Of a stretch of DNA of 35,556 nucleotides, positions 26,917-35,257 are shown one piece after another (position 1 is the first letter of the stretch; every line of letters starts with the position of its first letter). Location of the stretch: positions 1 to 35,556 of the forward strand of contig BJFQ01000013.1 of NCBI GenBank assembly GCA_014189895.1, given 5' to 3'. A program made the translations under genes and the position numbers. Below the pieces are notes generated by a model. That model did no database searches and was not told the DNA's origin. It worked only from the letters and a program-made list of their open reading frames with translations. The DNA comes from Acidobacteriota bacterium (lineage in GTDB: Bacteria > Acidobacteriota > Holophagae > Holophagales > Holophagaceae).

Positions 26917-27042
26917 ATGTCGATGAATCCCCAAGATGAAAAAAAGATGATCGGCATCGCACTAAGCGTCCTTGTATTCTCACTGATTGCAGCAGCGATG
27001 TATTGGGCATGGATGTTCAAGGGCTTACTCAAGAATCAATAA
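26917..27042 (+). CDS. 41-residue single-pass membrane protein
   Basis: A very short ORF 24 bp after the beta-barrel gene. A polar N-terminus (MSMNPQDEKK) is followed by a hydrophobic helix of about 22 residues (MIGIALSVLVFSLIAAAMYW), then WAWMFKGLLKNQ. AGGGG with about 7 nt spacing precedes the ATG at 26917. The ATG at 26923 is an alternative. The combination of ribosome-binding site, membrane helix and lysine-rich cytoplasmic ends argues that it is real. It resembles small accessory subunits of membrane complexes (CcoQ-like in size only), but I cannot assign a family. Confidence 0.6.
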   Translation: MSMNPQDEKKMIGIALSVLVFSLIAAAMYWAWMFKGLLKNQ

Positions 27043-27290: not shown

Positions 27291-27314
27291 TCCCTTTAAG
27301 GTTATTAGTTCGTT

Positions 27315-27323
27315 TGTTATGCT
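27315..27323 (+). promoter_or_regulatory. Extended -10 element for the desaturase operon
   Basis: TGT followed by TATGCT (27318-27323) forms an extended -10 (TGnTATnnT). It ends 6 nt before the desaturase ATG at 27330. AGGG lies only 2 nt from the ATG, too close to act as a normal ribosome-binding site. The -35 region (TTTAAG, 27295-27300) is poor. A leaderless message is the simplest reading. Confidence 0.42.
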
Positions 27324-27329
27324 TAGGGA

Positions 27330-28211
27330 ATGACACCAAATTTAGTAACGAGTTCGGATTCGCGACCTAGATGGACGCCTCTCTCAATCAGTTTTTTAGG
27401 CCTTCATATAATATGCTTGGCGGTTTTTTGGACCCCCTTTGCTTGGCCTCTTTTTGTAGGGTTGGTTTTCAGTTATGCCATTCGCATGTTCGCCATTACT
27501 GCGGGCTACCATCGTTACTTTTCGCATCGAACTTTTAAATTGAATCGAATAAGCCAGTTCTTATTAGCTTTTGTAGCCCAGACGTCAGCCCAAAAAGGTA
27601 TTTTATGGTGGGCGAGTCATCATCGTAATCATCATCGTTTCTCTGATCAACACGAAGATATTCATAGCCCTCTCGCCAAGGGGTTTTGGTACGCCCACGT
27701 GGGCTGGATTCTCTCTGATGCCCACGAAGCCTATGATTCCAAAAATATTCAAGACTTTGAAAGATATCCCGAACTTCGTTGGCTGAATACCTATCACTGG
27801 GTTTGCCCCCTGTCTCTAGGAATTGCAACTTTTCTTCTCGGCTATGCAACAGGGCTAGGGGCCTGGGCTACCTTGCTCTGGTTCTTCGTCCTTCCAACGG
27901 TTCTTCTTTTTCACGGAACGTTTACAATCAATAGCCTTTGTCACCTCTGGGGTTCTGTTAGATTTTCGACTGGAGATGGTAGTCGAAATAATTTTATTTT
28001 AGCTTTCTTGACCCTGGGAGAAGGCTGGCATAACAACCATCATCATTTTCAAAATGGTTGTCGCCAAGGTATTCGATGGTGGGAATGGGATCCTACTTTT
28101 TACATCCTTAAAGTATTCAGTTGGTTATCTATTGTTCAAGATATACGCCCTTGGCCTCCTGAAAAACTCCTAGCCCGTAAAGACGCCTCCTTCTCTTCCG
28201 ACCTATCTTGA
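27330..28211 (+). CDS. Membrane acyl (delta-9-type) fatty acid desaturase
   Basis: A 293-residue di-iron membrane desaturase of the OLE1/DesC type that introduces a cis double bond into an acyl-CoA or lipid acyl chain. Three histidine boxes are intact: HRYFSH (61-66), HHRNHH (97-102) and HNNHH (234-238, within GEGWHNNHH). Hydrophobic segments lie near 17-58, 74-95 and 150-195. It opens the eight-gene lipid operon, followed 13 bp later by a flavin oxidoreductase gene, and would supply the unsaturated chain that the two Cfa-family methyltransferases need. The exact regiospecificity cannot be read from sequence. Confidence 0.93.
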   Translation: MTPNLVTSSDSRPRWTPLSISFLGLHIICLAVFWTPFAWPLFVGLVFSYAIRMFAITAGYHRYFSHRTFKLNRISQFLLAFVAQTSAQKGILWWASHHRNHHRFSDQHEDIHSPLAKGFWYAHVGWILSDAHEAYDSKNIQDFERYPELRWLNTYHWVCPLSLGIATFLLGYATGLGAWATLLWFFVLPTVLLFHGTFTINSLCHLWGSVRFSTGDGSRNNFILAFLTLGEGWHNNHHHFQNGCRQGIRWWEWDPTFYILKVFSWLSIVQDIRPWPPEKLLARKDASFSSDLS

Positions 28212-28224
28212 GACAGTGATCTTT

Positions 28225-29487
28225 ATGACGCGGGTTGCGATTATTGGATCGGGTATTTCAGGCTTAGGCACGGCTCGTTTTTTATCTCAAACGTCCGACA
28301 TTACCCTTTTCGAAAAGCAATCTAGGCTTGGCGGACATACTCACACCCATCATTTATCGATTGGCGAAACCCCCGTCTCTGTAGACACGGGGTTTATCGT
28401 CCACAATCGTATGAACTACCCGAACTTGATTCGGCTCTTAGAAGAATTGAACATTGAGACTTGTGATTCGGATATGAGTTTTGCCGTTGATCGGCGAGGA
28501 GAGCCTCAAGGTCTTTCCTGGTGCTCTCGGGGGCTTAATGGGGTTTTTACTGAACGTAAGAACATTTTGAACCCTCGTTTTTATGGTTTTTTATCTCAGA
28601 TTTATCGATTCAATACAGTAGGTCGTCGCTTTATTGCTCAACACGATCACAAAGGGGCAGCCCTCACGCTTGAGAACTTTCTTCATCAACATGGTCTGGA
28701 TAACGCCTTTGCTGAAAATTACATCTATCCCATGGCTTCCTCGGTTTGGTCCATGTCTCGACAGCACATCAAAGATTTTCCAATATTGACGTTGCTTCGT
28801 TTTTTTCAAAACCATGGAATGCTCGGTATGACGACCCAATATGGATGGCGAACGATCCCTGGAGGAACAAGTCGCTACATTGCCCCTTTGATCGAACCAT
28901 TCAAGCATCAAATATTCCTCAATCGGACGCCAATCCGAGTCGAGCGACAGGCCGATCGAGTCAATTTAATTTTTGCCGACGGAACTCTCCAGTCTTTTGA
29001 TCATGTTGTTTTGGCTTGTCCTGCCCCCGATGCGCTCAATTTACTTAGCGATCCTTCAGATCGAGAACGCGAGATTCTATCTGCTTTCGAAGTAAGTCGA
29101 AATCCAACCATTCTCCATCGTGATCGGAATTTATTACCGCCCCACCGTCGAAGTTGGGCTTCTTGGAACTTCCCTGCGAATCCTGAAGGCAGTTCAGCGA
29201 GACTCACCTATCACATGAATCGCTTACAGCCTTTAGCGACCAAAGAGGATCTCTTCGTTACGCTCAATGGTGAAAGTCATATTGATCCAGAGTTGGTTGA
29301 GCGACGCATGGATTATGTGCACCCAAAATATAATGATCGAAGCATCGCCGCCCAAAATCGATGGCAGGAAATCAGTCGTGTTGATCGCCGCACCCATTTT
29401 GCAGGGGCCTACTGGGGCTATGGTTTTCATGAGGATGGCCTTGTTTCAGGGCTTCGCGTCGCCCATGCTTTAGGCGCCCGATGGTAA
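28225..29487 (+). CDS. FAD-dependent amine-oxidase-like protein of lipid modification clusters
   Basis: A 420-residue flavoprotein with an N-terminal Rossmann FAD site (VAIIGSGISGLGTARFL, then FEKQSRLGGHTHTH) and a C-terminal FAD-contacting segment (GAYWGYGFHEDGLVSGLRVA). SVDTGFIVHNRMNYPNLIRL is typical of the amine oxidase subgroup that travels with Cfa and DUF1365 genes and that is fused to Cfa in plants. In Rhodobacter a related flavoprotein, which I recall as UfaD, acts as a desaturase in furan fatty acid synthesis. GTG at 28216 is an alternative start, but ATG at 28225 fits the family start better. The 3' end overlaps the DUF1365 gene by 7 bp. Confidence 0.88.
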   Translation: MTRVAIIGSGISGLGTARFLSQTSDITLFEKQSRLGGHTHTHHLSIGETPVSVDTGFIVHNRMNYPNLIRLLEELNIETCDSDMSFAVDRRGEPQGLSWCSRGLNGVFTERKNILNPRFYGFLSQIYRFNTVGRRFIAQHDHKGAALTLENFLHQHGLDNAFAENYIYPMASSVWSMSRQHIKDFPILTLLRFFQNHGMLGMTTQYGWRTIPGGTSRYIAPLIEPFKHQIFLNRTPIRVERQADRVNLIFADGTLQSFDHVVLACPAPDALNLLSDPSDREREILSAFEVSRNPTILHRDRNLLPPHRRSWASWNFPANPEGSSARLTYHMNRLQPLATKEDLFVTLNGESHIDPELVERRMDYVHPKYNDRSIAAQNRWQEISRVDRRTHFAGAYWGYGFHEDGLVSGLRVAHALGARW

Positions 29488-30245
29488 CCTCGGGCCTTTA
29501 CCGCGGATCACTGCGTCATCGACGCTTTACCCCTCAGTCTAATGAGTTTACTTACCCCATCTTTATGGCCTTCTTGGACGTGGATCGTTTATCGGAGCTC
29601 ATGCAGGTTTCGCCGTGGGTCAGCAATAACCGTTTTAATTGGGCTAGCTATGACGACCGAGATCACCTAGGAGATCCTCGCTTACCTCTTCGTGAACGGC
29701 TTAAACTAGAAGCTCAATCTCGAGGTATAGACCTTGGGTCGGGAAAAATATTCCTCTTAACTCATTTACGATATTTGGGGTATTGTTTCAACCCAGTTTC
29801 ATTTTTTTATTTCTATAACGAGGCAGATGAACTGGTGGATGTCCTTGCCGAAGTTAACAATACGCCCTGGGGTGAGCGCCATCTCTATTGGATGAGCCAA
29901 TTCCCCATGCACCAAGAGGGCTCTCGTCGAACCTATGCAGTCCCCAAGGCCTTTCATGTTTCCCCCTTTATTTCCATGGATTGTCGATATCTCTGGTCCT
30001 TCGAGAATCCCGCCCATCGCCTAGGGATCCATATTCAAGAATTCGAACAAGATCATTTCTTTTTTGACACAGATCTCAATTTAGTTCACCACGTATGGAA
30101 TGCCCAAGAGATTCGACAAACTTTATTCGCGTTTCCATGGATGACTTTAAAGGTGATAATAAGCATACATTGGCAAGCCTTCCGTTTGTGGTGCAAGCGA
30201 GTCCCCATCCAAACTCACCCTAAAAAAATAAAATCCCCCAAATGA
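29481..30245 (+). CDS. DUF1365 protein
   Basis: A 254-residue DUF1365 protein. The family signature is plain: LYRGSLRHRRFTPQSNEF near the start and HLRYLGYCFNPVSFFYFYN, then AEVNNTPWGERH in the middle. Hydrophobic segments are weak, so it is probably peripheral on the membrane. Its biochemical role is unestablished, but it co-occurs very consistently with the flavin oxidase and Cfa-like methyltransferase, which suggests a role in the same acyl-chain modification. It begins inside the flavin oxidase gene and ends in an ATGA overlap with the next gene. Confidence 0.9.
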   Translation: MVTSGLYRGSLRHRRFTPQSNEFTYPIFMAFLDVDRLSELMQVSPWVSNNRFNWASYDDRDHLGDPRLPLRERLKLEAQSRGIDLGSGKIFLLTHLRYLGYCFNPVSFFYFYNEADELVDVLAEVNNTPWGERHLYWMSQFPMHQEGSRRTYAVPKAFHVSPFISMDCRYLWSFENPAHRLGIHIQEFEQDHFFFDTDLNLVHHVWNAQEIRQTLFAFPWMTLKVIISIHWQAFRLWCKRVPIQTHPKKIKSPK

Positions 30246-31459
30246 TTAATCGCCTCCTTCGTTATTTCACTGTTCGTCTCCTCTCCAAGATCGAGGGTGG
30301 ATTTCTTGAACTACGTACAGCCGAAAAAACATATTTTTTAGGCGATGCAGAAAGCTCCATGAAAGCCGTTGTCATTATTCATGATGCTCGAGCTTATCGC
30401 ATAGGTTTATTACAGGGCGAAGTAGGGTTTGGTCTTGCCTACATGAAAGGCTATTGGTCTTCACCGGATCCTGTCGCTTTGGTCCGTCTTGTGGTTCGCG
30501 GGATGACCTCCCTGACTGAAGATCGGGGACTGTTCTCATGGCTAGGAAAAAAGATCAATCGATTACGCCATCTCTCTAAGGACAATCACTTGCAGGGTTC
30601 TCGATCTAATATTGCTCACCACTACGACTTAGGTAATGATTTTTACCAATTATGGCTCGACCCAACTTTGGCTTACAGTTGTGCTTACTATCGATCGCCG
30701 AATGACTCACTCGAGGTTGCTCAAATGCAAAAGTTTTCACGGATCGCTGAAAAACTTTCACTGAATCCCCATGATCATTTACTTGAGATTGGGACTGGAT
30801 GGGGGGGCTTCGCACTTTATGCCGCTAAACACATAGGGTGTCGTGTAACAACCACCACTATCAGTCAACAACAATTCGAATACGCCCGAGCTCTATTTGA
30901 TAGGGAAGGGGTCAGCCATCTCATCGATATTCGTTTCGAAGATTATCGATTGCTCGAGGGAACCTTCAGTAAAATTGTTTCTATCGAAATGTTTGAGGCG
31001 GTGGGCCTAAAGTATTACGATGATTACTTTGGGTGTATCAGCCGACATTTGAAGACTGGCGGTCTTGCCTTGATCCAGACCATCACCATGAATGAAACTC
31101 AGTGGGAAACATACATCAAGGGTACCGATTGGATTCAGCAATATATCTTTCCTGGAGCCGAACTTGCTTCATTATCCGAAATTCTTAAATCACTCGGTCG
31201 GACAGGTTCTCTTCGTGTTTTACACCACGAGGATATTGGCGCTCACTATCACCGCACCATAGATGCTTGGCGCCAGGGATTCTGGGCTCAGATCGATAGG
31301 GTACGCGCCTTGGGATACAGTGATGAATTCATCCGAATGTGGGACTGGTATTTAGCCTATTGTTCAGGTGCTTTTGCTGAAAGATACATTGGTGATTCAC
31401 AATTATTACTAGGCCACCCTGAAGCCATTGGGGTGAACCATGAACCTTGGAGTCGATAA
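30242..31459 (+). CDS. Cyclopropane-fatty-acid-synthase-family SAM methyltransferase (first copy)
   Basis: A 405-residue Cfa-type enzyme that acts on the double bond of phospholipid acyl chains with SAM. HHYDLGNDFYQLWLDP and LAYSCAYY (Cys147) match the family, followed by the SAM site LLEIGTGWGGFALYAA and SIEMFEAVG (Glu252). Compared with E. coli Cfa active-site residues C139, E239, H266, I268 and Y317, four are retained (Cys147, Glu252, Ile281, Tyr336). The residue equal to H266 is Gln279 (IQTIT). The product could be a cyclopropane or a methylated chain. It is coupled to the DUF1365 gene by ATGA and to the DUF1475 gene by TAATG. Confidence 0.92.
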   Translation: MINRLLRYFTVRLLSKIEGGFLELRTAEKTYFLGDAESSMKAVVIIHDARAYRIGLLQGEVGFGLAYMKGYWSSPDPVALVRLVVRGMTSLTEDRGLFSWLGKKINRLRHLSKDNHLQGSRSNIAHHYDLGNDFYQLWLDPTLAYSCAYYRSPNDSLEVAQMQKFSRIAEKLSLNPHDHLLEIGTGWGGFALYAAKHIGCRVTTTTISQQQFEYARALFDREGVSHLIDIRFEDYRLLEGTFSKIVSIEMFEAVGLKYYDDYFGCISRHLKTGGLALIQTITMNETQWETYIKGTDWIQQYIFPGAELASLSEILKSLGRTGSLRVLHHEDIGAHYHRTIDAWRQGFWAQIDRVRALGYSDEFIRMWDWYLAYCSGAFAERYIGDSQLLLGHPEAIGVNHEPWSR

Positions 31460-31782
31460 TGAACTATCTTAAATTTTGGGCCTGGGCAGTCTTGATTGCG
31501 ATGCTAGTCGTCACGTCTTGGGCCTCGCTTCATGAATCTATTTTTCATGTCATCGCGTATTTTCCTGATGAACCTTGGTGGGTTGCAACTTTGTTTGATA
31601 CCTACTTTGCTTTTATCTTCTTTTGGCTTTGGATTGTTTATCGCGAAGGTTGGTCCATCCCCAGTTTTGTTTGGTTAATTACGATTTTACTTTTAGGTAA
31701 TATTGCTATGTCTATTTATGTTTTGTTAGCTATCCAGAAGACGCAGGACCTTTCAGGCCTTTTCCGTCGGCAGTCTGCATGA
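31459..31782 (+). CDS. DUF1475 small membrane protein
   Basis: A 107-residue protein with three hydrophobic helices (about 5-23, 40-61 and 69-92). The segment ATLFDTYFAFIFFWLWIVY with LLLGNIAMSIYVLLAI matches the DUF1475 family, known from plants and some bacteria. Function is unknown. The start is ATG at 31459, overlapping the previous stop (TAATG). An upstream in-frame TTG at 31447 lies inside the previous gene and is unlikely. It ends in ATGA with the next gene. The membrane location and operon context suggest a scaffold or substrate-handling partner for acyl modification. Confidence 0.75.
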   Translation: MNYLKFWAWAVLIAMLVVTSWASLHESIFHVIAYFPDEPWWVATLFDTYFAFIFFWLWIVYREGWSIPSFVWLITILLLGNIAMSIYVLLAIQKTQDLSGLFRRQSA

Positions 31783-32243
31783 GTAATTGGCTGAAAACAA
31801 AGGTCCTAGATCCTCTTATTAATCTCTTAAAACAGGGTACTACGCCAACTAAATTAGGTTGGAGTGTGGCTGCGGGTTTTGTGATCGGCACGAGTCCATT
31901 GATTGGGACTTCGACTATTCTTTGTGTTGTTGTTGGGTTTATTTTTCGGCTTAATCATCCTGCAATCCAGACTGTGCATCTCGCCTTGTCCCCTTTGCAG
32001 TTTCCATTTCTTTTCTTTTTTATTTATGCGGGCGAAAAATTATTCAATCAACCACATATTGTTCCCATAATTATTCAAGAGATTAAATCAGGTTCATTTT
32101 CACCTTTTGCAACGATAGAGACTTACTGGAGTAGTTTTTGGCATGCAGGTCTTGTTTGGTTATTGGTTGGGATTCCCTTAGTAATTATTTTGGGTTTAGG
32201 TCTTAGTGCATTTTTTCATCGCATTAAAAAGGCAACGCAATGA
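31779..32243 (+). CDS. DUF2062 membrane protein
   Basis: A 154-residue protein with the DUF2062 pattern: GTTPTKLGWSVAAGFVIGTSPLIGTSTIL then FRLNHPAIQ. Helices lie near 26-56, 66-84 and 120-148. The family is common next to lipid and glycosyltransferase genes, but its function is not known. It starts in an ATGA overlap with the DUF1475 gene and ends in one with the DUF1295 gene, so production is tightly coordinated within the lipid operon. Confidence 0.82.
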   Translation: MSNWLKTKVLDPLINLLKQGTTPTKLGWSVAAGFVIGTSPLIGTSTILCVVVGFIFRLNHPAIQTVHLALSPLQFPFLFFFIYAGEKLFNQPHIVPIIIQEIKSGSFSPFATIETYWSSFWHAGLVWLLVGIPLVIILGLGLSAFFHRIKKATQ

Positions 32244-33031
32244 ATACATTTGAACTTGTTTTATATGGAGCCCTGATTGTTTCGGTTCTCCAGTTTTGTC
32301 TTTGGCTGTATTACCGCGCAACGGACAATGCCGCCTGGGTCGATGTGGGTTGGGCTTATGGCCTAGGACTCATCGTTCTTTTCTATGCTTTTAATGGCTC
32401 GGGTAGCCTGACTTCTCGACTACAAGCAGGGATTATGGGAGGTCTTTGGAGTGCGCGTCTCGGTACTTACCTTTTTAATCGAGTTAAAAATGAAAAAGAA
32501 GATGGCCGTTATGGTGAAATTAAGCGAAGCTGGAAAACCAATTTACCTTTTAAATTTTTTATTTTCTTTCAAACGCAAGCCTTGCTTGATGTCATTCTCT
32601 CCATTCCTTTTCTCATCTTAGTCCAAGATCTCCGAGAAGACCTTCGATGGACCCAGTGGATCGCCTTAGGTCTTTGGGTCATCTCGATGATTGGAGAGGC
32701 GGCGGCAGATCAGCAATTAGCGCAGTTCAAATCAGAAACAGCCCACAAGGGTCAAACTTGTCGACGAGGGCTATGGCGTTATTCTAGACACCCTAACTAT
32801 TTCTTTGAATGGTTGATGTGGGTGGCCTTTGCACTCATGGCCATTCAATCTCCCGGAGGCATCTGGTCTGTGGTTTGCCCAGCACTCATGCTGTATTTCC
32901 TTCTTCGCGTCACGGGAATCCCTGCTACGGAAGCCCAAAGTCTACGAAGTCGACCTGAAGACTATCGACGTTACCAAGAAGAGACTTCCATGTTTATCCC
33001 TTGGTTCTCCAAGAAGGGGGTCTCTCAGTGA
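32240..33031 (+). CDS. DUF1295 steroid-reductase-like membrane protein
   Basis: A 263-residue polytopic protein with about six hydrophobic segments. Its C-terminal block RRGLWRYSRHPNYFFEWLMW (about 174-193) is the signature of the DUF1295/isoprenylcysteine-methyltransferase-like/steroid 5-alpha-reductase fold, which binds NADPH or SAM. The RHPNYF motif is intact. This suggests a reductase or methyl-transfer step on a lipid in the membrane, but the real reaction is unknown. It starts in an ATGA overlap and ends in a GTGA overlap with the second methyltransferase. Confidence 0.88.
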   Translation: MNTFELVLYGALIVSVLQFCLWLYYRATDNAAWVDVGWAYGLGLIVLFYAFNGSGSLTSRLQAGIMGGLWSARLGTYLFNRVKNEKEDGRYGEIKRSWKTNLPFKFFIFFQTQALLDVILSIPFLILVQDLREDLRWTQWIALGLWVISMIGEAAADQQLAQFKSETAHKGQTCRRGLWRYSRHPNYFFEWLMWVAFALMAIQSPGGIWSVVCPALMLYFLLRVTGIPATEAQSLRSRPEDYRRYQEETSMFIPWFSKKGVSQ

Positions 33032-34062
33032 ACTGGACCGATCATTTAATTCGTCGAGGATGGATTCCTGACGGGGTGATTCGTTTTCAAATCAAGAGGC
33101 TTCTTCGACTTCGTCTTCGAGAAGAATACGCAGGAGGAGCGGAGTCTGTTCATGATCGCTTCCGAGCGCGTCTCGCCCTTTGGTCCCAAGGACCGATCGC
33201 CATCAATATGCAAGAGGCGAATGATCAGCACTACGAGGTACCTCCTGCTTTTTTTCAAAAAGTACTGGGGCCCAACCTTAAATATTCATGCTGTTGGTTT
33301 GATAACCCTCAGCAAAGCCTGGAAGCCGCTGAACGTGCGATGTTGCAACGGACCTGCGAGCGTGCAGACCTCAGGAATGGGCAGACGATTCTTGAATTAG
33401 GGTGCGGTTGGGGCTCACTTTCTTTATGGATGGCGGAACATTTTCCCGAATCGCGAATCACTGCAGTATCGAATTCAAAGGATCAGCGTCTTTATATTGA
33501 AAGCCAAGCCCTAAATAGGGGACTCTCTAATCTTACGATTCTGACCCAAGATATGAACGCCTTCGAGACCGATAAAACATTTGATCGCGTAGTTTCGGTT
33601 GAAATGTTTGAACACATGCGTAATCACCAAGCTCTCATAGGTAAAATTTCAAAGTGGCTTAAGCCCCAAGGCAAATTGTTTGTGCATATCTTCACCCATC
33701 GAGAGTTGACTTATCCTTTTGAGGTTAAAGATAAGACCGATTGGATGGCTCAGTACTTCTTTACGGGGGGTATGATGCCGAGCGACCATTACCTTTTAAG
33801 GTTTCAGGAATCGTTGAAGATCGAAGATCACTGGCGGCTCAATGGACTTCATTACGCCTACACGTCTGAAGCCTGGCTTCAGAATCTCGATGCACATTAC
33901 GATAGTTTAAAAAATCTATTTGCAGCCTCAATGACAATTCCTGAAGCCGAACTTCAGTTAGCACGCTGGAGAATATTCTTTATGTCCTGTGCTGAATTGT
34001 GGAAATACAAACAAGGGGAAGAATGGATCGTTTCACATTACCGATTTCAACGACCTAACTAG
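33028..34062 (+). CDS. Cfa-family SAM methyltransferase, CNMT-like (second copy)
   Basis: A 344-residue SAM enzyme of the Cfa superfamily, closer to the coclaurine N-methyltransferase-like branch than to E. coli Cfa. Features: KYSCCW (Cys88), ILELGCGWGSLSLWMA, VSVEMFEHMRNH (Glu195, His196), KLFVHIFTH (His220 in the place of the Cfa bicarbonate His) and the GLHYAYT tail. The start is GTG at 33028, in GTGA overlap with the DUF1295 stop and with AGGGGG about 8 nt upstream. It differs strongly from the first copy, so the two enzymes probably do different steps on the acyl chain. It ends the operon. Confidence 0.88.
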   Translation: MNWTDHLIRRGWIPDGVIRFQIKRLLRLRLREEYAGGAESVHDRFRARLALWSQGPIAINMQEANDQHYEVPPAFFQKVLGPNLKYSCCWFDNPQQSLEAAERAMLQRTCERADLRNGQTILELGCGWGSLSLWMAEHFPESRITAVSNSKDQRLYIESQALNRGLSNLTILTQDMNAFETDKTFDRVVSVEMFEHMRNHQALIGKISKWLKPQGKLFVHIFTHRELTYPFEVKDKTDWMAQYFFTGGMMPSDHYLLRFQESLKIEDHWRLNGLHYAYTSEAWLQNLDAHYDSLKNLFAASMTIPEAELQLARWRIFFMSCAELWKYKQGEEWIVSHYRFQRPN

Positions 34063-34147
34063 AATATTGATTTCCTAGACATCCAGGGTTTCTCCTCATC
34101 CTGGTTATTCGTTTGCCTCATACTAAACAAGAAAGCAGGTTGATAAG

Positions 34148-35257
34148 ATGACTATAAATCCCGGTTCGAATATGAATTTTAAAAAAAGATTGCCTCTCGG
34201 ATGGATCATCTTAGGATCCGTATTCTTTATTGGCTTCATTGGTTGGATGATGTCCGAAGGAACCTCCCTTTCCGTCAGTACGAATACACCCACACTCTTC
34301 AAGAAGGGTTCTCAAACTCCTCTAGTGACAGCTTCGGGTTATATCGTCGCTCGGACGCGCGCGACTCTTTCCAGTAAGGTTCTAGGTCGCGTCGCTTATT
34401 TGGGAGTTCAGGAGGGTAGCCCTGTGATCAAGGGTCAGGTCTTAGCGAAATTAGAATCGCCTGATATTGAGGCCTCCCGGAATGCTATTTTTTCTCAAGT
34501 CAAGCAAGCTCAGCAGGACTATGATCGAAGCGCCACCCTACTGAAGGCAGGTTATGAAAGTCAGGCCAATACTGAGCGACTGTTGACTCAGTTGAATACC
34601 CTTAAATCCCAATTGGCCTATCAAGAGGCCCTACTGGAAAGCATGACCCTTAAGGCTCCCTTCACGGGTATTGTGACTCAAAAATTATCTGAAGTAGGGG
34701 AAACTGTGGCTCCCGGCAGTGCGGGGGGAGCTAATGCGATCAACGCTATTTTAGTGATGGCCGACTTCGATACGTTGGAGGTCGAAGTAGAAGTAAGTGA
34801 ATCGGGCGTTGGAAAACTGAGATCAGGGATGGCTACTGAAGTTCGGGTCGATGCCCTAGAAAAAAAGAAAGATTCTGCAGTTTTAAGAGGCCATTTACGA
34901 GCCATCTATCCGAGTTCCAATCGCCAAAAAGCTACCATTATTGTTCGTGTTGCACTAGACCAAAAAGATCCCCTGTTAGTTCCCGATATGGGAGCCAAGG
35001 TGACTTTTCTAGGGGCCCCTTACGAAGAAGACGTCCTAGTTTTAGGACGTGAGCAGGTTTATCGAGACCCTCAGACTTCAGAAAGTTTTACTTGGGTTGT
35101 GGAAAAGGGTGTTGCCACAAAAAAATCACTTTTAATTCTAAATCCCAGTAATCCCCTAGGCTATGAAGTCTCAGGATTAACGCCTTCCTCTCAACTGATC
35201 ATCGCTCCCCCCGATAATTTGAAGCCAGGCCAAAAAGTCGTCGCTAAGCGATTGTAG
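34148..35257 (+). CDS. HlyD/RND-type periplasmic adaptor protein of an efflux system
   Basis: A 369-residue membrane fusion protein. One N-terminal transmembrane helix (about 18-36) precedes the lipoyl half-motif (VTASGYIVARTRATLSSKVLGRV), a helical hairpin (about 105-160), the second lipoyl half (LKAPFTGIVTQKLSEVGETV) and a beta-barrel domain. It should link an inner-membrane ABC pump to an outer-membrane channel. AGGT at 34137-34140, 7 nt from the ATG, gives the ribosome-binding site. The ABC ATPase gene starts 2 bp after the stop. The permease would be to the right of the window. The substrate is unknown. Confidence 0.9.
   Translation: MTINPGSNMNFKKRLPLGWIILGSVFFIGFIGWMMSEGTSLSVSTNTPTLFKKGSQTPLVTASGYIVARTRATLSSKVLGRVAYLGVQEGSPVIKGQVLAKLESPDIEASRNAIFSQVKQAQQDYDRSATLLKAGYESQANTERLLTQLNTLKSQLAYQEALLESMTLKAPFTGIVTQKLSEVGETVAPGSAGGANAINAILVMADFDTLEVEVEVSESGVGKLRSGMATEVRVDALEKKKDSAVLRGHLRAIYPSSNRQKATIIVRVALDQKDPLLVPDMGAKVTFLGAPYEEDVLVLGREQVYRDPQTSESFTWVVEKGVATKKSLLILNPSNPLGYEVSGLTPSSQLIIAPPDNLKPGQKVVAKRL

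Follow-up and report, generated by a model that had tools for sequence, protein, structure and literature searches.

A predicted eight-gene operon for dimethyl furan fatty acid synthesis in a small-genome member of the Holophagaceae

An eight-gene operon of a Holophagaceae bacterium probably encodes a complete assembly line that leads from a saturated acyl chain to a dimethyl furan fatty acid. It lies in a stretch of 35,556 nucleotides (contig BJFQ01000013.1, hereafter the window), where positions 27330-34062 hold eight tightly packed open reading frames, all read from the sequence and all on the + strand (Table 1). The chemistry of steps 2 to 5 of the scheme proposed below was established with the enzymes of Rhodobacter and Rhodopseudomonas. 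For the window, the analysis shows the identity, order and recurrence of the genes and the fold of the DUF1295 protein; that these copies catalyze the same reactions is inferred, as are desaturation by the first gene product, what the partner proteins do, and the biological purpose. Furan fatty acids are found in fish, plants and microbes and are membrane lipids that protect against singlet oxygen formed by light. Characterized bacterial enzymes for their synthesis were found only from two Alphaproteobacteria.

Table 1. Genes of the operon and a 3' hairpin, in window coordinates
Feature	Length (aa)	Position	Strand	Match or remark
DES, membrane fatty acid desaturase	293	27330..28211	+	PF00487 (FA_desaturase) 65 bits
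UfaD homologue, FAD-dependent acyl desaturase	420	28225..29487	+	PF01593 (Amino_oxidase) 77.7 bits, PF13450 (NAD_binding_8)
UfaO homologue (DUF1365)	254	29481..30245	+	PF07103 259 bits
UfaM homologue, Cfa-family SAM methyltransferase	405	30242..31459	+	PF02353 (CMAS) 275.6 bits
DUF1475-type small membrane protein	107	31459..31782	+	PF07343 22.3 bits, exactly the cut-off
DUF2062 membrane protein	154	31779..32243	+	PF09835 42.7 bits
DUF1295 protein	263	32240..33031	+	PF06966 210.6 bits, Steroid_dh 45.6 bits
FufM candidate, CNMT-like SAM methyltransferase	344	33028..34062	+	GTG start; PF02353 (CMAS) 146.4 bits
Weak terminator-like hairpin 3' of the last gene		34083..34104	+	Such sites not clearly above shuffled sequence

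A preliminary description of this DNA had listed eight same-strand genes with overlaps from the flavin gene on; all eight reading frames were recovered, Pfam agrees with every name, and each overlap was confirmed. The UfaD and UfaO genes overlap by 7 nt, UfaO and UfaM by 4 nt, UfaM and DUF1475 by 1 nt (TAATG), and DUF1475 and DUF2062, DUF2062 and DUF1295, and DUF1295 and the FufM candidate (GTGA) by 4 nt each. The gap between DES and the UfaD homologue measures 4 or 13 nt, depending on whether UfaD starts at an alternative GTG at 28216 or at 28225. The hairpin fits an end of the operon after the FufM candidate, which is suggestive only. A promoter scan returned fewer sites than in shuffled sequence and was uninformative. 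Reverse-strand reading frames at 27535-27849 and 28591-28911 are regarded as shadows of the coding sequence.

Several features flank the operon. The motif TTGTTATGCTTAG(G/A)GAATG (window 27312-27332) stands immediately 5' of the desaturase start, and its copy in the congener locus L010 differs by one base despite divergent flanking DNA; it could be the -10 box of a leaderless message. Further upstream, a 41-residue reading frame (26917-27042) with one hydrophobic stretch appears to be kept in the congener loci L010 and L011. A membrane-fusion protein gene (34148-35257) begins 85 bp past the operon and is followed by an apparent ABC transporter ATPase (35260 onward). The membrane-fusion gene has the same place in two congeners and also lies 3' of the operon in L012; it was not seen there in L013 or L015.

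The core of the pathway is known from Rhodobacter sphaeroides and Rhodopseudomonas palustris, where UfaM, UfaD, UfaO and FufM were defined via mutants, heterologous expression and in vitro assays (Lemke 2020, PMC7380195). UfaM, a Cfa-like methyltransferase, converts cis-vaccenate to 11Me-12t-18:1; the product of the FAD protein UfaD is 11Me-10t,12t-18:2; with UfaO, a DUF1365 protein, the furan is closed using O2; and FufM, a second SAM methylase that is 26% identical to UfaM, yields the dimethyl furan acid (PMC7380195). All members of the UfaM/UfaD/UfaO pathway have counterparts in the window: a DUF1365 protein, which is single-copy in the host genome, an FAD desaturase-like protein beside it and a Cfa-family methyltransferase. 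The UfaD homologue is a conserved neighbor of UfaO and UfaM across relatives and other phyla. The solved structures nearest to the UfaM homologue are CFA synthases (197 bits, versus 66 for CNMT), and its identity with the FufM candidate is 33% over 322 aligned positions. As judged by sequence, the flavin gene, the DUF1365 gene and the first Cfa-like gene are UfaD, UfaO and UfaM. The preliminary description had noted that this trio recurs in bacteria and has relatives in Rhodobacter, which was correct, the trio being ufaD-ufaO-ufaM (PMC7380195). Its proposal of a membrane route that desaturates, methylates and oxidizes acyl chains was also supported. It had left the choice between cyclopropane, branched and furan products open, whereas the trio, together with a second Cfa-family enzyme that fits FufM, leads one to expect methylated furan acids.

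Sequence is a poor guide to function in the Cfa family, as is seen with the mycobacterial pair BfaA/BfaB. These proteins, an FAD enzyme and a Cfa-like methyltransferase encoded by overlapping genes, as here, make 10-methyl stearate in E. coli. Accordingly constituted, the operon might yield mid-chain methyl-branched acids of the tuberculostearic type, formed by Cfa-like methylation of a monounsaturated chain and reduction by the flavin protein or by DUF1295, whose reductase fold would suit such a step. Arguing against this pathway is that the BfaA/BfaB product, which is saturated and branched, requires neither a DUF1365 protein nor a second enzyme of the FufM type, both of which the window operon has in addition. 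Moreover, the only characterized case of a DUF1365 protein is UfaO, which forms the furan, and genomes with FufM almost always contain DUF1365. Branched acids are thus considered quite unlikely. The proximity of the UfaM homologue to bacterial CFA synthases among solved structures would agree with synthesis of cyclopropane fatty acids by one or both Cfa-family enzymes and their modification by the other gene products. Cyclopropane synthesis needs a single enzyme, this reading would leave the DUF1365 and FufM-type genes, which are conserved, without an explanation, and a trio of this make-up has been tied functionally to furans; a cyclopropane product is very unlikely. Methylated furan acids remain the preferred reading.

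Among solved structures the protein encoded by the last gene scores 252 bits with plant coclaurine N-methyltransferase and 108 bits with CFA synthase. The Arabidopsis protein LIME1 is, by its annotation, presumably of the CNMT type. LIME1 (AT4G33110) is 38% identical to FufM (PMC10940516). If the last gene encodes FufM, it is expected solely in genomes that also have UfaO, and this prediction was tested in 297 Acidobacteriota genomes, with at least 400 bits required for a FufM-type call. The scores were bimodal, at least 400 bits for the FufM type and at most 135 bits for the rest; a next best score of 135 makes for a clean split between FufM and UfaM/CFA enzymes. UfaO was present in 31 of 32 genomes with FufM and in 13 of the 265 others (Fisher p about 1e-30, a value that overstates independence because the relatedness of the genomes was not corrected for). 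In the sole exception, G174, FufM lies at a contig end. DUF1365 was also found in all of 20 further genomes, chosen via FufM loci, most of them with few or no ufa genes. These results are in line with the report that FufM genes are nested within UfaO genomes (PMC7380195). The plant N-methyltransferases, as best solved relatives, could be taken to indicate that the last gene encodes a true CNMT-like amine N-methyltransferase and that the operon links the modification of lipids with an amine or an amino lipid. This is highly improbable, since FufM itself falls on the LIME1/CNMT-like side and genes of this type are found almost exclusively in genomes that have UfaO. From family membership, published identities and gene context, the last gene most probably is FufM, predicted to add the second methyl group to the furan ring.

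The pathway requires an unsaturated chain. DES is the only match to FA_desaturase (PF00487) in the host genome, and the only FabA-family protein there is FabZ; FabA was not found in that genome. Based on these two observations DES is likely the source of the chain double bond. With DES in front, the gene set could, to judge from its sequences, take a saturated chain all the way to a dimethyl furan fatty acid. In the proposed sequence of events, DES would place a cis double bond in the saturated chain (step 1). The UfaM homologue would transfer a methyl group from SAM onto the chain with a shift of the double bond (step 2), and the UfaD homologue, an FAD enzyme, would convert this product to a conjugated methyl diene (step 3). 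The UfaO homologue would then insert oxygen from O2 and close the furan ring (step 4), and the FufM candidate would methylate the free ring position to give the dimethyl furan fatty acid (step 5).

Three membrane proteins accompany these enzymes. DUF1295 gave no match by sequence against the PDB, and its fold was compared instead. The model (pLDDT 95.6) matches Delta14-sterol reductase (4quv, Z 15.5) and steroid 5-alpha-reductases (7c83, Z 15.0; 7bw1, Z 13.8), whereas unrelated entries score near 5. The alignment spans most of the protein, and the membrane fold is held in common; identity to these reductases is 13-14% and there are matches to ICMT methyltransferases as well (Z about 11.7), so that the fold does not single out one reaction. 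Our best guess for DUF1295 from the model is a probable NADPH-dependent reductase of the membrane whose substrate would be a lipid of the pathway, perhaps the ene-dione that remains once singlet oxygen has spent a furan. The model of DUF1475 (pLDDT 88) is a bundle of about three long helices; its comparison with the PDB yielded no meaningful match, which is no proof of a new fold. Residues P39, T44, D47, Y49, W58, E63 and G80 are invariant in an alignment of 31 DUF1475 sequences, and DUF2062 has conserved residues of its own in an alignment of 17. Both DUF1475 and DUF2062 probably act as small partners in the membrane, where they may serve as a scaffold or present substrate. As far as titles and abstracts tell, none of the literature naming DUF1475 or DUF2062 appears to concern lipid modification. 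One DUF1475 homologue (L014:8376-8711, genome G028) has no furan genes nearby, and the family thus has another context as well.

The order of the genes is retained beyond what chance would give, as it is kept in congeners and in relatives of the same family and class. In both congeners (G001, G002) the eight genes stand in this order with 71-91% identity, a member of another genus of the family (G020) has kept all eight at 36-61%, and three members of another family of the class (G030, G034, G038) have seven, without DUF2062, at 28-57%. To survey more distant organisms, the best 80 FufM loci among 84,980 species genomes were scanned with profiles made from the family of the window proteins; these loci are the closest relatives and were not drawn at random, and short contigs are among them. 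Among these 80 loci DUF1295 was found in 63, UfaM in 60, UfaO in 56, UfaD in 54, DUF1475 in 35 and DUF2062 in 19, and a desaturase of the close type in 16 and of a more distant type in 19 (for example L061:8014-8748, with histidine boxes recognized by eye). DUF1475 lay directly by DUF1295, DUF2062 or FufM in all 35 of its loci. In the Acidobacteriota, FufM was present in 17 of 22 genomes with DUF1475 versus 15 of 275 others. The preliminary description had named DUF1475 and DUF2062 as partners, and the recurrent neighborhoods back this. The comparison of neighborhoods it had proposed confirmed that DUF1475 and DUF1295 recur beside ufa genes and showed the eight-gene arrangement to be widespread, not unique. 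The identical order occurs in four Verrucomicrobia loci (L023, L056, L057, L082). In Bacteroidetes the order is desaturase-DUF1475-DUF1295-FufM-UfaD-UfaO-UfaM, in the Acidobacteria loci L046, L059 and L083 the gene set forms two divergent halves, and shortened forms of the set are present in other Acidobacteria, Bacteroidetes and Proteobacteria. Culturable carriers include Mucilaginibacter, with DUF1475-DUF1295-FufM, and Pedobacter. Plasmids of Acinetobacter piscicola, Shinella and Cupriavidus confirm the core set, which in Cupriavidus lies near a photolyase gene; a search for DUF1475 on plasmids gave no match. In about 18 loci, mostly of Bacteroidetes, an alpha/beta hydrolase-like protein (L065:10617-11840 and relatives) is encoded near FufM and may be a further lipid-acting partner or reflect shared ancestry.

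The biological role of the operon is best considered in the light of its host. The host genome has 1,165,493 bases (97% complete), whereas most genomes of its family measure 2-5 Mb. In the family of a 'Holophaga sp.' MAG genome sizes vary in the same way, with members of 1.2 and 0.9 Mb among them, and among 60 genomes drawn only the 1.2 Mb member had a rhodopsin. In the host rhodopsin (L102:1471-2166; G000:C5:18342-18974) a helix C of the D-T-E type and the retinal lysine were identified by eye; its gene adjoins a polyprenyl synthetase-like gene. Acidiparvus (UBA12189) is described as the sole Holophagaceae genus with rhodopsins, with genomes below 1.4 Mb and a habitat in lake surface water; crtY, crtI, crtB and crtE are reported to be absent, and the terms 'fatty acid', 'furan' and 'singlet' do not occur in its description (PMC11561045). 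Small genome, rhodopsin and membership in the Holophagaceae match, and the host accordingly fits this streamlined freshwater genus.

For a cell that carries rhodopsin and lives in sunlight, the likely benefit of the pathway would be a membrane shielded from singlet oxygen. Upon exposure to singlet oxygen the furan acid vanishes, and cells that cannot synthesize it die. The SigE-ChrR regulon, which responds to singlet oxygen, has the furan acid synthesis genes in its core (PMC6852236), and in Pseudomonas light induces ufaM (PMC9758184). Singlet oxygen acts through SAK1 in Chlamydomonas to induce CFA1, CFA2, whose annotation is coclaurine N-methyltransferase, one DUF1365 gene and one DUF1295 gene (PMC4067076), which ties DUF1295 to the furan pathway independently. 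On the Shinella plasmid DUF1295-FufM directly follows the genes for a sigma factor and an anti-sigma factor of the ChrR type, a pair that in Rhodobacter is the singlet-oxygen switch. A MerR-type regulator is encoded near furan genes in L029, L033, L059, L073, L075 and L078, which belong to several phyla, and that of L073 looks LitR/CarH-like by eye, with a B12-binding part. Its recurrence suggests light control of furan genes. A far-reaching extension would be a self-renewing lipid antioxidant, in which dimethyl furan acids serve as a sacrificial trap for singlet oxygen, DUF1295 reduces the resulting ene-dione, and DUF1475 and DUF2062 hold the membrane enzymes together. Such a system would shield a streamlined proteorhodopsin bacterium from light, its genus reportedly being without carotenoid-type genes for retinal; as a whole this scheme is speculative and unlikely.

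Retention of the operon in a 1.2 Mb rhodopsin genome suggests that membrane photoprotection was worth keeping amid gene loss. As the operon is common to Acidobacteria, Verrucomicrobia, Bacteroidetes and Proteobacteria, many more producers of furan fatty acids are predicted, and the gene set provides a signature by which to find them. DUF1295, DUF1475 and DUF2062 are uncharacterized families that can now be tested as parts of a pathway.

The pathway itself is already known. The preliminary description had considered the combination of two Cfa-family enzymes with these DUFs possibly undescribed. Joint action of two such enzymes, UfaM and FufM, has been shown functionally in R. palustris (PMC7380195), whereas no account of the complete operon, its spread across phyla and its three partners turned up in the literature searched, which took in only a minority of subscription papers. 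In the SigE-ChrR and LitR systems ufa genes are core members of the regulon, and the Shinella and Pseudomonas clusters contain the same enzyme families; the window operon differs in having no adjacent regulator of that kind, neither a sigma/anti-sigma pair nor a ChrR- or LitR-type regulator being found beside it or among the scanned proteins of the window. The plasmid operon of Acinetobacter piscicola (NZ_CP048660) has the same order, desaturase-FAD-DUF1365-Cfa-DUF1295-FufM-type methyltransferase, without DUF1475 and DUF2062, and its annotation names no furan pathway. All four enzyme classes of the pathway of Lemke (2020) are also represented in the window operon: the DUF1365 oxygenase, the FAD desaturase and two different SAM methyltransferases. 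In R. palustris fufM (RPA0924) is located away from ufaM-O-D (RPA2569-2571) and not in one operon with them, and the gene set sufficient for the pathway in Rhodobacter does not include DUF1295, DUF1475 or DUF2062 (PMC7380195). In the window, by contrast, the four classes are united in one overlapping operon, together with a desaturase, DUF1295, DUF1475 and DUF2062.
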